A stretch of 64,000 nucleotides of DNA from Ganoderma boninense (lineage: Eukaryota > Basidiomycota > Agaricomycetes > Polyporales > Polyporaceae), in contig CM035314.1 in NCBI GenBank assembly GCA_002900995.3, positions 1 through 64,000 on the forward strand, written 5' to 3'. Both the position numbers and the translations under genes were made by a program. Of this stretch, positions 13,516 through 20,349 are shown piece after piece (the stretch's first letter is position 1; each line of letters starts with the position of its first letter). Below the pieces are notes generated by a model that made no database searches, had not been told where the DNA came from, and saw only the letters and a program-made list of their open reading frames with translations.

Positions 13516-14782
13516 CGGGGTGTGTGTGTTGGAGATGTTTTTTTTTCAGATAGGATAAACAGATTACTCGAGGAAGAAACTTCTCCCTACTATCCTCGTG
13601 CCCTGAAATGTGCCGGGGACTGACACAAGAGGCGACTGTGTACCTATTCTCCTATTAGTTCAACCTCTCTTCTAAGAGCATCTTTGCACTGTACGGTAGT
13701 AGCGGTACGCGCTCGACTACCCCTGCAAGCTGGGTTTACTGATATATTCCGTGCGAGCTAACACAGACCGGTAAGTGGGACCTTTCAGACTTATGTTTGA
13801 ACCGTTAAATGTTCCTTGTTCCTCAATCATGGACACGCGATTTATACTGCGTTGTGCGACTGGCTGACCGGGCAACGTCGATCTTCAATGCGACCGAGCG
13901 ACTCCTGGCACTAACGGCCGCTGTCACGTGGGCATGAGCGAAGTTTTTGCTTGGGCACTAGTTTTTTTGAGCGACATTGTCCTTTGATCCCAACCATTCG
14001 CAACTTCGCTCAAACGAGATGATGTTCGCAAGTTCTTGCGACGGTATGAGCTAAGCACAACCATTTACTTCTCTCTGATCGGCACCCATATAGTCCAGTG
14101 TCCACCCTGCCGGGGCAAGGGACCCGGACCTCCTCAGATCTGCATCCCTGTATTAGGTGCGTATCTCCACAATTTTAACCAAGTATGTCTTCGTGAATTG
14201 ACTATCCTGACACTGGCAGTTTCAGCCACACTCGGCTCCTCAAAGTTCACCACCGCGATCGGTTTCCGCGCCGAGAGCTACGGGTAAGAAACTTCTAAAC
14301 TGCACCGAATCCACCTCAGAATGAGCAAGTCAGAGTGCGCCGATCCTATCGAAACTCTGAGTCCTCTGACGACAACGTTACAAAGAGAACAAAACGTGGT
14401 GTGGCTAAGGTGCAACCGGGTCAACGTTCCCCACTGTATCCCCGATGAGAGAGGGGTCAGAAAAGGTTTGTGGCCTCGCTCTTGCTCGACGTTAAAAGTC
14501 ATGATGATCTGACGTGAATTTCAGTCGCTGTGGAGACTTCCTCCTCCATGAAGCAGCTATCTGTGCATGATGTACATGTGTATCTGTCGATGCATGGACT
14601 CCGCGAGCTCGAGGTCGGCGTGGGCGTCATCCGTTCATCGTGCCCGATGAGATCTTGTCCTGGATATGGGCTAGACCGACGGATCTTGGCTCTTGAACGA
14701 CATCCACGATGGTCCCCCTCCTGCTCCCCTCTTTGCCGCCTCGCTGCTGGCCAACCATGCGCACTGCTGCCTCCGGAACTTA
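13516..14782. other. intergenic stretch left of the transposon
   Basis: Several plus frames of 60-90 codons occur (for example near 14036, 14321 and 14530), but none is recognisable and no multi-exon model was convincing. The right limit is the TA at 14781-14782 that flanks the mariner element. Confidence 0.35.
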
Positions 14783-14874
14783 CAGTGCCTTGCATAATTG
14801 CGTGAACGCGCCGAAAAAATCCCCGCCAGCGCTTATACCCAGACCTGCCAAATCGGGTAGCCGGTCACGGTCAC
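14783..14874 (+). repeat. left terminal inverted repeat, 92 bp
   Basis: Exact reverse complement of 18202-18293. It starts CAGTGCC next to target TA and ends ...GGTCACGGTCAC. The repeat contains a run of six A (CCGAAAAAATCCC) and two GGTCAC words near the inner end that could be transposase-binding sites. Confidence 0.95.
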
Positions 14875-15111
14875 GAATGCGCTCCCCACCTGTATTACTT
14901 ACTTTTGTAGTCTGCAGAGCCCGGAGAAAGTGACGATTTAGTGTACAATAATATGCGTCAGATGCGGTTGTGTAGCAAGTCGGACTCGGAGGCCCGAGGC
15001 GAAAGTTGGCCCCGTGGCCGGTGGACTTATTAATTGGCAATTGTGCCCTATCGACGCCGCTGCTTTCGCCGTGCATTTCTGTCTGTGAACCTTGCACATC
15101 CACTTCACTAC

Positions 15112-16182
15112 TATGACACCCGCTATCTCTGTCGACTTGAAGGAGCGAATTATCCATCTATATCTCTCTGAAAGATGGACCATGAACAAGTTGCCGATAC
15201 TCTGAACGTCTCGACCGGGCTCGTTTCAAAGGGTCGTTACGACATACCGCACTCATGGCACTGTCGTTGATCCAACCAAGCGACGTACCGGACGTCCTCG
15301 CCACATAGACGATGAAGATTGTCAATATCTCACGGCAATCCTCACCGCCAATCCCAACATGTACCTGGATGAAATTCAACAACGGTTACACACAGTTCTC
15401 AATCTCGACGTCTCTCTCGCTACCATCTCCCGCACACTACACCGCCTCGCAATCACTTGGAAGGAGTTTCCAAGGCAGCATTAGAGCGGGACGAGGATTT
15501 GCGGATGCTGTGGAGGTTGGATATGGCGCAGTATGAAGATCCAGAAATGTTCGTCTTTCTCGATGAAAGTGCGGTCGACAATCACACGGTCCAACGCAGG
15601 CATGGGTGGTCTGCGGAGGGATTTACCATGTGTCAAGCGTGGAACATTCCTCCGTGGTACTCGTTTCTCAATCCTTCCGGCTCTTTAGCTTGGATGGTAT
15701 CCTCGCTCTCGATATTTTTGAGGGCTCAGTCACGAAAGAGCGGTTTTTTTGGCTTTGTGCGTGAATATGTTGTGAGTCGTAATTGTGCATTCAACTGTGC
15801 ATGCCATAACTTGTACTTCAACTAGGCCCCACAGCTCAACCCCTTTCCTGGAAAACGGAGCATCGTAGTGTTGGATAACTGCACGATTCATCACGACGAA
15901 GAGATTCGCCACTTGATTGAGGACGAGTGTGGTGCGTAAAATATTGTATTGTGTGCGCTTTTGCTCAGTAAACACCAGGTGCGAAGTTGATTTATCTTCC
16001 CCCTTATTCACCCGACTTCAATCCAATCGAAGAGGCATTTTCATCTCTCAAAGCTTGGTTGCGGCGAAACGAGGCCCTCTATACGGAAACTGCACAGAAT
16101 GCCTGGCTTATTTCAGCAGGCTTCTATGTCCGTTACACGAGAAATGGCCTGGGGATGGTTCAAGGACTGGATACATCCATGA
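15112..16182 (+). pseudogene. Tc1/mariner (IS630-like) transposase, frameshifted
   Basis: It starts MTPAISVDLKERIIHLYLS, followed after a frame change by a helix-turn-helix segment EQVADTLNVSTGLVSK, then TGRPRHIDDEDCQYL, FLDESAVDNHTV (first Asp), VVLDNCTIHHDEEIRHLI (second Asp) and PPYSPDFNPIEEAFSSLKAW (catalytic Glu), and ends KDWIHP before TGA at 16180-16182. About 35 residues separate the second Asp from the Glu. Two short introns are likely (about 15770-15826 and 15934-15979). At least four frame changes are needed, near 15175, 15230, 15465 and 15630-15700, so no full-length enzyme can be made. Mobilisation would need transposase supplied from another copy. Confidence 0.88.
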
Positions 16183-16234
16183 CATTAATGAGTAGCTATG
16201 CTATGTACACAAAAACGAATGGTCTAGTTTGTAA

Positions 16235-18076
16235 TTACAAGCTATATGGAGTTGAAGGACGGAGTGGTGGTTGATAAGTACTAGAGTGGTGGTTGAACAC
16301 CGACAGCGACAACAGTGACATTCCTACAACGAGACGCCGTACACGCTTAGCAACAATACGACTGTACCAGTTATCAGCATAGTTCTTGAGTGCATAGATC
16401 TGGCCCTCTCCGAACCGAGGGAGGAGCTCCTGGAGACGCTCGATCGGAACACTCGCAAGCGAGTCCGGCGTGAAGGCAAGGTTCGACAACACCAAAATGG
16501 CGTCGTCGATGAGCTGCATTGGGATCCGCCGCTCATGAGCAAATGCCTCGAGGCAGCGAGTCAACTCCTCATGAAACCTCAGGAGGAGGTGATGAGTCCC
16601 GGTGAGGAGTACTCGGAGAGGAGGAAACTGGTCGCTCGCCGTGAGAAGACACAGGCACGGCAGGGCGGACTGGACTCAACAAGCCGTGCTGGGCAACAGT
16701 GGTCAGCAAGGGGACCAGTGCTGTAAGGATTTGAGCAGCACTGTTGTCCGTGTTCGCAGCCACAGTAGTTCAGCAGCAGGATGAGGACCGGTGCGACCAC
16801 GAGCCTTCACAGTAGCTGGGTTTGCCAGTCCACAATGCGAGCAGCTCTGGGGGAGGAGGGTCACTAGCTGCACGGCCAGCAACCTAGGACTAGTTAGCAC
16901 ACATAATGATGGTACGACAGATGAATGGAAGACGTACGACAGCAGAAGACCATTGCAGAAGCCGGATTTCATGTATCTGAACGTGCTCGAGTGATGGCGT
17001 CACGAAACACGTGGCTCGATGAACGGCGCACGCCCATGCTTTCTGAATGAGCTTCGCGGCGTCCTTGCGGGTGTTTTGCTCTTCTGAATATGCAGTAGCT
17101 GAGGGAACCTGAATGACAGCGTCCATTAGTATCAACACACTAGTAGTCACTAGTAGTACACATCGATAAAAGATGACTTACCGCCGTGCCATACGTGATC
17201 TCACCAAGCTCTGGAGACAGTGGCTGAATAGACGTCAGTGACATTCTCAGAGTGGTAAGAAAAATAAGACATACCCGCTTGAGTCTTGCCCATGGTGCCA
17301 AGATGTCCAGGTTGAACTTGACTTGGACAGCCGTCACAGTACGCCGTGTGACGCGCAGCTGGGCAAGGAGCATGGCCCACTCCCGGTCTGTCTGGATTGT
17401 TGGAGGATTGATCTTCCCACCACTGGGATGCGCAATGAGGGAGGGGAGGGAAACAGCAATAGATTTGACGTACACGGAACCAGTCCAGAACACTACCATA
17501 GGAGGGCCATTGGGAACATTTGCGTCGTACCTATCTTGGAGCCCATGTGCAGTCAATGCACCCACAATGAATGCAGAGCGGGTCATCGAGAGAACAGGGT
17601 AGTCGACGGGGGCCTGCTTGGATTCCTCGTGCTTCTCCCGCTTCTCGCTCTTGCCCGACTTGACCGTCTTGGTGCGAGACATCGTGACATGGACAAAGAA
17701 TCGACGGACTGGAGATGGGCATGGTTAGAGTGCCCATGCGTACATGCCTGGACCGAATGAATGCTCACCAAGGTCCGGGTCTACCTGAACTTCTTCTGCA
17801 GGACGAGGCACCTCGACAACGTCTTCAGACTCGGAGTCTACCGTGGGAGATGCAGGATGAGCGTTCTCGTGTGGGGAATCACCGAGATCTGCAGAAGCAC
17901 AGGGTTTTGAGAGAAGCCTCCGGAAGCGAAACAATAGGCGACATACCTGCTTGATGTCTCCCGGAAACCATGGGTGCCTGCCGGAGCAATTGAGGCGCCA
18001 AGGTTGGAATGACTACGAGCTCGTGAAAGGCAGAACCAGCAGGGCCGTTGAGAGACCACCGAGCCTTCCGGGGCAT
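16235..18076 (-). CDS. passenger gene of the mariner element, unknown function
   Basis: Not recognised. A consistent five-exon front part can be read: 18076-17947 (MPRKARWSLNG...), 17888-17769 (acidic, SESEDVVEVPRPAEEVQVDP), 17708-17275 (VRRFFVHVTMSRTKTVKSGK..., a Lys/Glu/Ser-rich basic patch, then TREWAMLL-type globular sequence with QLRVTRRTVTAVQVKFNLD), 17223-17182 and 17108-16938 (NTRKDAAKLIQKAWACAVHR). All have GT-AG borders and closed phases. The back part is less sure: a Pro/Ser-rich frame (about 16760-16570) and a conserved-looking end with EELTRCLEAFAHERRIPMQ and IERLQELLPRFGEGQIYALK are joined only by a one-base frame change or an unseen intron. No membrane segment or catalytic motif is seen. 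The acidic and basic N-terminal patches hint at a nuclear or nucleic-acid-related role, which is inference. The front exons are clean, unlike the broken transposase. Confidence 0.55.
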
Positions 18077-18201
18077 AGAAAAGGATAGGGGACAAGGGGG
18101 ACGGCAGAGCTGGAATAAGGCTTATCTATTGCAGGAACATGCGGAGAACATGAGGGCGCCGCGTGCGCGCAGGGCGAGTGCGACGCGCGTCGTCGTATCG
18201 T

Positions 18202-18293
18202 GTGACCGTGACCGGCTACCCGATTTGGCAGGTCTGGGTATAAGCGCTGGCGGGGATTTTTTCGGCGCGTTCACGCAATTATGCAAGGCACTG
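18202..18293 (-). repeat. right terminal inverted repeat, 92 bp
   Basis: Exact reverse complement of 14783-14874, ending CAGTG-inverted (CACTG) at 18293 followed by TA. Confidence 0.95.
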
Positions 18294-18591
18294 TATATCG
18301 GACCATAAAGCTGCGCCCTGTCCCGCTAGGGTGTATTCAGGTTGGACACGTGAGTCATCACCTCCCTTACAGGCGATCCATTCCCGGCCGCATCCAACAA
18401 ACCTGGGAACACGCAGTGCACACAGAGGCTCAGGAGCGGCGCACGGTTCACACTCGCACACGCTCCATCGCAAATCCGGCTTGTGACCGCACGCTCGTTC
18501 CATGCCCACTGGTGCGCCCAGCTTCTCTTCCCGCCCTTCTCGATGCCCCTCTGACGCCCGCGCAGGATATACCATAACACCACGCTAAATC

Positions 18592-18625
18592 GTTTATCCG
18601 CCCCATTCTATTTCTACCCCGCACT
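18592..18625 (+). promoter_or_regulatory. shared FMO core-promoter block (FMO2)
   Basis: A TTTATCCGCCCC word followed by TTCTATTTCTACCCCGCACTC ends about 43 nt before the ATG at 18668. FMO3 has the same pair (TTTATCCCCCC, then TTTATTTCTATCCTGCGCTC) at the same spacing. Likely core promoter and transcription start. Confidence 0.6.
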
Positions 18626-18667
18626 CTCCTCCAACTCTATGTAATTTCCCCTGGCTCGCCTGGCCCT

Positions 18668-20349
18668 ATGTCTTCCCAAGCTCCTCCACCGCTCTCCCCC
18701 GTCGCTGCTCACGGAGCCGCCACCGCTGAGGGCGCCTCCATTCACACCACCCTCTACGATGGCCGAAAGGCTCCCCACCAACTCCACGTCCTCGTCGTCG
18801 GCTGCGGCATGGGCGGACTCTCCGCCGCACATTGTCTAGGCAAGGCCGGCCACAAAGTCACCCTCTTCGAGGCAGCACCTGCGATCGGCGAAGTCGGCGC
18901 GGGCATCCAGGTCACCCCCAACGTGTCGCGTCTACTGCAGCGATGGGGCGCAGGCCCCGCGCTCGAAGCCGTCGCCGTCCGTCCCGACGCGATCGCCCTC
19001 AGAAGGTACGACACCGGCGAACGAGTGGGATACACGCGGTGGACGAGCATGGAGGCCAAATACGGTGCGCCCTACTACCACATCCATCGTGCCGACCTCC
19101 ACAAGCTCCTCTTCGACCTCGCCGTCCCGCACATGACCCTCCGCCTCAACGCGACCGTCGTCAGCGTCGACCCGGATGCACCTTCGATCACCCTCGCGTC
19201 CGGGGAGGTAGTGCGGGGGGACCTGATTGTCGGTGCCGACGGCGTCAAGAGCTTGTTGCAGGAGGTCGTCATCGGACACACGAACCCGGCCGAGGCCACG
19301 GGAGATGCCGCGTACCGCGCGGTCATTCCTTCGCATCTGCTGTTGGGAGATCCGGAGCTCAAGGAGCTCATTGACGTGCCGGAGATGACGGGCTGGATGG
19401 GGCCGGGGCGACATATCATGGCCTACAACATCGTACGTCGTGTTCTCCTGCGCTCCGTACGCGTTTTCGCTGACTTAGGGGTGAAGAGGAGCAAGAAGGA
19501 GTACAACCTCGTGCTCATCCACCCCGACGACGGCTCGGTGGAATCGTGGACGGCGGAGGGCAGCGCAGATAAGATGCGGGCCGACTTCGCCGATTACGAG
19601 CCCAGGTACGCCCCCGATAGCAGTAATTGTAATGGTCGCCTGCACACGTTGTCTCAATCTCCATCGTACAGGATACGCAAGATTCTGGGTTTCGTGCAGT
19701 CGACGCTCAAATGGCGACTCATGGACCGCAAGCCGCTGAACAAGTGGATCCATTCCTCGAATCGCGTCATACTGTTGGGCGACGCGTGCCATCCAATGCT
19801 GGTCAGTCGCGCTCGAACTTCATTGGAGAGCTAAAACGCGCTCACCGTTATCCGCCTAACCCTCATTTGACATCCTGTCACTGACCACAGCCGTACCGCG
19901 CGCAAGGCGCAGCGATGGCGATCGAGGACGGCGCAGTGCTCGGGAACCTGCTCTCGCGCCTCGCCCACCCTTCGCAGCTCACCGCGTTGCTCCAGGCTTA
20001 CGAAGACCTGCGGCTGCCCCGCACGGCGGAGACGCAGACCCAGTCTCGCCGGAACCAGAAGATCTTCCACTTACCCGATGGACCCGAGCAGGAGCAGCGC
20101 GACGCCGACATGCGCAAGGCGACCGAGCTCGAGCTTCGACGCATGCGTGGGGACCCCGGGCAGGCGGGCGACGCGCTCGCGGGGAGCTCGAACCAGTGGG
20201 CGGATGAGCGGAAGAGTCGCATTCAGTTCGGATATGACGCGGACGAGGCGGCGGACGAGTGGTGGCGCGAGGTCGGGCAGCGCAAGCTGGGTCTGGCGAG
20301 CGCGACGCCCGGCGGGGGCTCCAGTCCGACGATCCTCTCTCGATTGTGA
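18668..20349 (+). CDS. FAD-dependent monooxygenase, salicylate-hydroxylase-like (FMO2), 490 aa
   Basis: Exons are 18668-19432, 19487-19605, 19672-19801 and 19891-20349, with every phase closing. Motifs: VVGCGMGGLSAAHCLGKAGH with the GxGxxG at residues 45-50, HRADLHKLLFDL near 140, IVGADGVKS, and GDACHPML at 331-338, followed by PYRAQGAAMAIEDGAVLG. It is a group A flavin hydroxylase by these motifs. The exon 2 acceptor is GTGAAG rather than the nearer TTAG, because only that choice keeps the frame and matches the RxKKEYN start in FMO3. It is closer to FMO3 than to FMO1 in the C-terminal half. The gene stands 0.37 kb right of the mariner element, which did not disturb it, and points toward the F-box gene. 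The substrate is unknown. Confidence 0.9.

Follow-up and report, generated by a model that had tools for sequence, protein, structure and literature searches.

Tc1/mariner elements are the textbook transposons that need one protein, and a transposase with a partner is familiar from CACTA/En-Spm elements, in which TnpA and TnpD make up a pair of transposase and accessory DNA-binding protein. Here we describe a 3.5-kb element with two genes in a 64,000-nucleotide stretch of the basidiomycete Ganoderma boninense (assembly GCA_002900995.3, contig CM035314.1, positions 1 to 64,000 of the forward strand; hereafter the window). In common with one-gene Tc1/mariner elements (IS630-Tc1-mariner), it has a duplicated TA target, terminal inverted repeats, which are perfect, and a DDE_3 transposase with a helix-turn-helix. 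Its length and its two genes do not match the usual Tc1/mariner format, a single transposase open reading frame (ORF) in about 1.3 kb, and it differs from CACTA/En-Spm in its TA target, its CAGTG ends, and its transposase of Tc1/mariner type. The second gene, which we call gene 2, is convergent with the transposase gene. Very probably, the element represents a lineage of Tc1/mariner transposons in basidiomycetes that are autonomous and have two genes.

Multi-gene elements of Tc1/mariner type are known from ciliates: the TBE elements of Oxytricha and the Tec elements of Euplotes have three ORFs, as stated in the excerpts of two sources on which this comparison draws (PMC7325037, PMC4724952). 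The first-pass annotation of the window took the transposase to be the sole gene of standard Tc1/mariner elements; in view of these ciliate elements, the rule is not universal. According to these excerpts, TBE and Tec resemble the present element in that long inverted repeats enclose additional genes beside a Tc1/mariner-type transposase, one of the genes lying on the opposite strand, and the zinc finger of the TBE 57kD protein has a parallel in a C-H-C-H module of gene 2. They differ in having three ORFs and ciliate hosts, as opposed to two genes and a fungal host; TBE ends are telomere-like, unlike the CAGTG ends found here, and neither the kinase domain of TBE nor the site-specific recombinase domain of Tec appears in Pfam scans of gene 2. 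No two-gene Tc1/mariner element is described for fungi in the open-access literature that we searched, nor is a two-gene fungal mariner found in the excerpts of PMC7325037, PMC3158057, PMC3441728, PMC4112212, PMC4724952, PMC6431247, and PMC4188875.

Both genes lie between the inverted repeats in every full-length copy found

The first-pass annotation had proposed perfect 92-bp terminal inverted repeats with CAGTG-type ends and TA on both sides, and a leftward multi-exon gene inside them. The limits of the element are borne out by two arms of 94 nt (14781-14874 and 18202-18295) that are 100% complementary; these arms include the TA, so the terminal repeats measure 92 bp (Table 1). At a tolerance of up to three mismatches, the window contains two occurrences of the element-terminal 20-mer (mean in shuffled sequence: 0.01). 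The exons of the transposase match DDE_3 and helix-turn-helix families. The leftward gene, separated from the transposase gene by 128 bp, is likewise supported, by full-length homologues in other species; it most likely has seven exons on the splice model, in which one of the six introns was recognised solely because homologues lack that stretch. Alignment with an open copy elsewhere in the genome (C9) reveals small frameshifting indels in both genes of the window copy, those of gene 2 falling in its last exon, and the window copy is therefore not autonomous.

We searched the genome of G. boninense (55.6 Mb, 74 contigs) for other copies. The 92-bp repeat has 169 candidate sites, of which 40 were scored: six ends, 96-100% identical to it, belong to three full-length elements, and the other 34 ends are 83% identical; nine distinct places among the latter were inspected and are short miniature inverted-repeat transposable elements (MITEs). 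All three full-length elements of this family (family 1), in the window, on C9, and on C2, carry both genes. The C9 copy (3,544 bp) has both genes open, with a transposase of 326 aa (Pfam: DDE_3, E 2.1e-32; HTH_32, E 2.1e-11), a gene 2 product of 471 aa, and GT-AG introns of 47-73 bp, and the C2 copy (3,410 bp) is decayed but still contains both genes. Protein searches of the genome, in which all candidates were scored (7/7 for gene 2, 34/34 for the transposase), returned no further full-length copy of family 1. A 194-aa exon stretch of gene 2 has four genome matches, all inside the three elements; a second gene 2 query has 12, of which 11 are inside elements and one is on C8, and a third has six, five inside elements and one weak match on C3 (E 0.047). 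The outcome that the annotation had named as refuting it, with transposase-only copies and gene 2 as a host locus elsewhere, was not seen in these searches. We reject gene 2 as an ordinary host gene: the searches found no full-length copy outside the elements, either for family 1 or for the second family described below.

A second two-gene family and relatives in other species

The same genome holds a second two-gene family (family 2), with TA-flanked elements on C1 (3,554 bp; L041 1963-5516) and C5 (3,559 bp; L042 2304-5862) that are 99.6% alike and both contain the two genes. Size and convergent layout are the same as in family 1, the inverted repeats measure 73 bp instead of 92 bp, and the ends read CAGCGCCTTGCAAAACG in family 2 and CAGTGCCTTGCATAATT in family 1, a near-identical motif. 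Both genes are open on C5, with a transposase of 325 aa and, convergent to it, a gene of 516 aa that has three introns; the C1 copy has a frameshifted gene 2. The transposase is about 37% identical to that of family 1, and the D-to-E spacing, determined by eye, is 34 residues in family 2 and 35 in family 1. Between the families, the gene 2 proteins align in the C-H-C-H module (E 3.5e-5, probability 72%, 59 columns, against the family-1 profile), to which the alignment is confined. We found no other place in the genome with gene 2 of family 2, the product of which also has an acidic tail as well as a stretch reading KRRRK. As the two-gene layout recurs in a second family, we regard the arrangement as that of a lineage and not as a one-off nesting.

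Gene 2 encodes a protein family that is conserved full-length across three genera (Dichomitus, Ganoderma, and Mycena). It has at least eight relatives, a lower bound, because scoring covered the 7,998 candidates with the most shared words. Seven are from Dichomitus squalens, Ganoderma sinense, G. leucocontextum (two), Mycena galopus, M. leptocephala, and M. amicta; the eighth, P0008 (263 aa), comes from one single 3,532-bp contig. A transposase, P0034, is also on a contig of this length; it shows 66% identity across 62% of the query and falls within the family-1 transposase clade (seven rows, support 100/100 in a tree of 41 rows). P0008 and P0034 are most likely parts of one element, since they come from the same source and both contigs have the same length, near the element size. 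Two other, near relatives of the transposase (P0011 and P0013) are 87-89% identical over 60% of it and lie on contigs of 3.2-3.7 kb from an ENA source.

In the window, a 418-aa open frame (18578-19834) directly follows the element on its right; from a motif seen by eye, we take it to resemble an FAD-dependent monooxygenase.

Table 1. Coordinates of the two-gene element and its parts, counted from the first nucleotide of the window.
Feature	Position	Strand	Details
Tc1/mariner element (family 1)	14783-18293		3,511 bp; TA flanks and paired inverted arms
Left TA target-site duplication	14781-14782		from the sequence; part of the inverted arms
Left 92-bp terminal inverted repeat	14783-14874	+	begins CAGTGCCTTGCATAATTGCG; arms 100% complementary
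Transposase gene	15113-16195	+	three exons; introns 15772-15825, 15932-15978
Gene 2	16324-18076	-	most likely seven exons; splice model, homologues in other species
Gene 2 introns	17889-17946, 17709-17768, 17423-17473, 17224-17274, 17109-17181, 16884-16937	-	
Right 92-bp terminal inverted repeat	18202-18293	-	arms 100% complementary
Right TA target-site duplication	18294-18295		from the sequence

Predicted architecture of the gene 2 protein

With modest confidence, the predicted model of the gene 2 protein suggests a disordered tail, a PB1-like domain (approximately residues 79-199 of the model), the C-H-C-H module, which probably binds zinc, and a SAM/HhH-like C-terminus. Domains of the PB1-like and SAM-like kinds typically serve in protein-protein interaction and in polymerisation. 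For gene 2 of family 2, Pfam returns SAM_2 alone, as a weak match (E 0.14), and the model of its C-terminus (pLDDT 46) is too poor for a structure search. A search of PDB sequences gave no match up to E 1, and a plasmid collection gave none; among viral contigs, 53 stretches fit a pattern and none was confirmed.

Deletion derivatives and indel-only differences

The MITEs noted above are short, non-coding, present in many copies, and bounded by inverted repeats, with main types of 386-387 bp; the 386-bp MITE shares its outermost ~30 bases with the two-gene element. Of 107 candidates, 40 were scored: 22 places are identical and full-length, one is identical over positions 3-386, five are 92-97% identical, and twelve are 89-90% identical, and TA flanks are present in all 20 copies fetched. 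In representatives of the two types, two inner stretches of the type-1 MITE and one of the type-2 MITE match the C9 element on its gene 2 side, all of them in or at the edge of exon 1 of gene 2. These inner matches indicate that the MITEs arose by deletion from a gene 2-bearing element of a related subfamily. The 22 identical 386-bp copies (e.g., L064, L065, and L066) are spread over ten contigs; judged from their sequences, they are a very recent burst.

Copies of family 1 differ from each other almost exclusively by small indels and complex replacements, in counts that do not represent independent events, as the copies share ancestry. Window and C9 copy are distinguished by 17 pure-gap clusters, two complex clusters, and no isolated substitution in 3.5 kb, and C9 and C2 copy by 54 gap or complex clusters and two isolated substitutions. 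In the young MITE type, five variants (L047-L051) likewise have 22 clusters (15 pure gaps, six complex, one multi-base) and no isolated substitution. The one-gene mariners of the genome have 16-19 isolated substitutions versus 1-4 pure gaps plus five complex clusters in each of three divergent comparisons, and four versus one in the close comparison; the family-2 copies have four isolated substitutions versus eight gaps. Second-type MITEs differ by substitutions only and have no gap (12/12). This result and the open state of the neighbouring 418-aa frame make assembly error an unlikely cause of the indel-only pattern; a 1-bp gap in L014, another second-type copy, weighs against the gap-free contrast. 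Break-induced replication is described, in an excerpt of its source, as a repair that stimulates frameshifts along its path (PMC3039667). We conjecture that gap repair after excision, acting in a similar manner, might explain the indel-only signature.

One-gene mariners and the origin of the two-gene layout

Transposase matches in the genome amount to 14 places: three of family 1, two of family 2, four of one-gene mariners, and five that are fragmentary. All four one-gene mariners are complete (1,420-1,426 bp) and contain the transposase alone between ~52-bp inverted repeats; compared with these ~1.42-kb elements, the two-gene elements are twice as long, have longer repeats (92 and 73 bp), and carry the convergent second gene. 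At the fragmentary loci (C3, C13, C7, C11 at 1.34 Mb, and C14), the family-1 query detects no gene 2 at E 0.01, with C3 not judgeable. The C3 transposase (L035 4253-5409) is 67% identical to that of family 1, has one end, and is broken after the transposase, where the adjoining stretch reads N; the insertion interrupting it is presumably, from a motif recognised by eye, an LTR element with a chromodomain. At L040 3145-7285 on C13, a degraded fragment of a mariner transposase is enclosed by 279-bp inverted repeats, which are 94% alike and have ends without TA.

Several observations weigh against a two-gene lineage in which gene 2 serves transposition. The one-gene mariners, with transposases about 40-44% identical to that of family 1, lack gene 2, so related transposases have no general need of such a protein. 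In the 41-row transposase tree, families 1 and 2 are far apart and the one-gene mariners fall on the same side of the midpoint root as family 1, which leaves a single origin of the two-gene layout without tree support. For seven of the eight gene 2 relatives, no transposase lies on a contig of equal size among the best 120 of 556 transposase matches in other species, each taken with its longest contig alone. The C8 locus is the sole clear gene 2 match outside two-gene elements: a fragment of 252 bp (L046 4655-4906) that is 90% identical to the last exon, encoding the C-terminal domain, with 17 non-synonymous versus eight synonymous changes in 249 bases and no transposase match in the surrounding 9.9 kb. 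Neither gene 2 of family 1 nor any of its relatives has a match in Pfam, the predicted model has a mean pLDDT of 58.5 (modest confidence), and a Foldseek search with it returned no match at E <= 0.001. Finally, we found no arrays of short repeats resembling binding sites in the element. As far as the sequences suggest, the two-gene layout would be either old, with losses, or gained twice.

Possible roles of gene 2

The first-pass annotation spoke of a cargo-bearing mariner lineage. The lineage stands, with both genes in all three family-1 copies, as the repeat search that the annotation had called for revealed, and in a second family; "cargo" is probably the wrong word, because the conservation of gene 2, the derivation of the MITEs, and the recurrence in family 2 point to an accessory part rather than a passenger. 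From the constant linkage, the conservation, the recurrence, and the lack of a full-length host copy, we infer that gene 2 may be an accessory factor in the element's own transposition, a role for which we consider the chances evenly balanced. By superfamily membership, the transposase would cut at the CAGTG ends and use TA for insertion, which is how other Tc1/mariner elements move. The gene 2 protein would most likely bind element DNA or the transposase, as guessed from its domains; it could oligomerise through its PB1-like and SAM-like domains and, in this form, might pair the two ends of the 3.5-kb element. The window copy would be a non-autonomous relic, moving only with proteins from an intact copy. 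Doubtful as a whole is a fuller scenario in which an old mushroom lineage needs a polymerising PB1/C-H-C-H/SAM-like partner, and frameshift-prone gap repair leaves indel-rich, substitution-poor offspring, both full-length and MITE.

Alternatively, gene 2 might matter to the lineage through the host, by countering silencing or by setting where and when the element moves, with no direct part in cutting and pasting. Interaction and polymerising modules, as in the predicted model, would suit such a function, and the related one-gene mariners multiplied (four copies) without gene 2; nothing here ties gene 2 to silencing, however, and the C-H-C-H module equally suits DNA binding, so that we consider a host-directed role somewhat unlikely. 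We consider it improbable that gene 2, as true cargo, was captured from the host and has been carried passively and kept by hitch-hiking. Fungi have many cargo-bearing elements, the lone C8 fragment lies outside the elements, and we know of no transposase partner with a similar domain make-up, yet no full-length host paralogue was found for either family, gene 2 is conserved full-length in three genera, and the C-H-C-H module is also present in the second family. A one-off nested or chimeric arrangement, with gene 2 as a second mobile gene inserted into a mariner, is rejected for practical purposes as extremely improbable: one-gene relatives are present in the same genome, but both genes occur in 3/3 copies and in a second family, no inverted pair flanks gene 2 (neither among the 14 pairs in the window nor among pairs at most 400 bases apart in one search), and a gene 2 relative and a transposase are on 3,532-bp contigs from another source.

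With gene 2 read as a possible accessory factor, a two-gene lineage beside one-gene relatives in one genome offers a natural comparison for what an accessory protein contributes to a Tc1/mariner transposon. Candidate contributions are larger size, end pairing, regulation, and escape from silencing. The gene pair, an intact copy, and abundant MITEs make this question testable in yeast.
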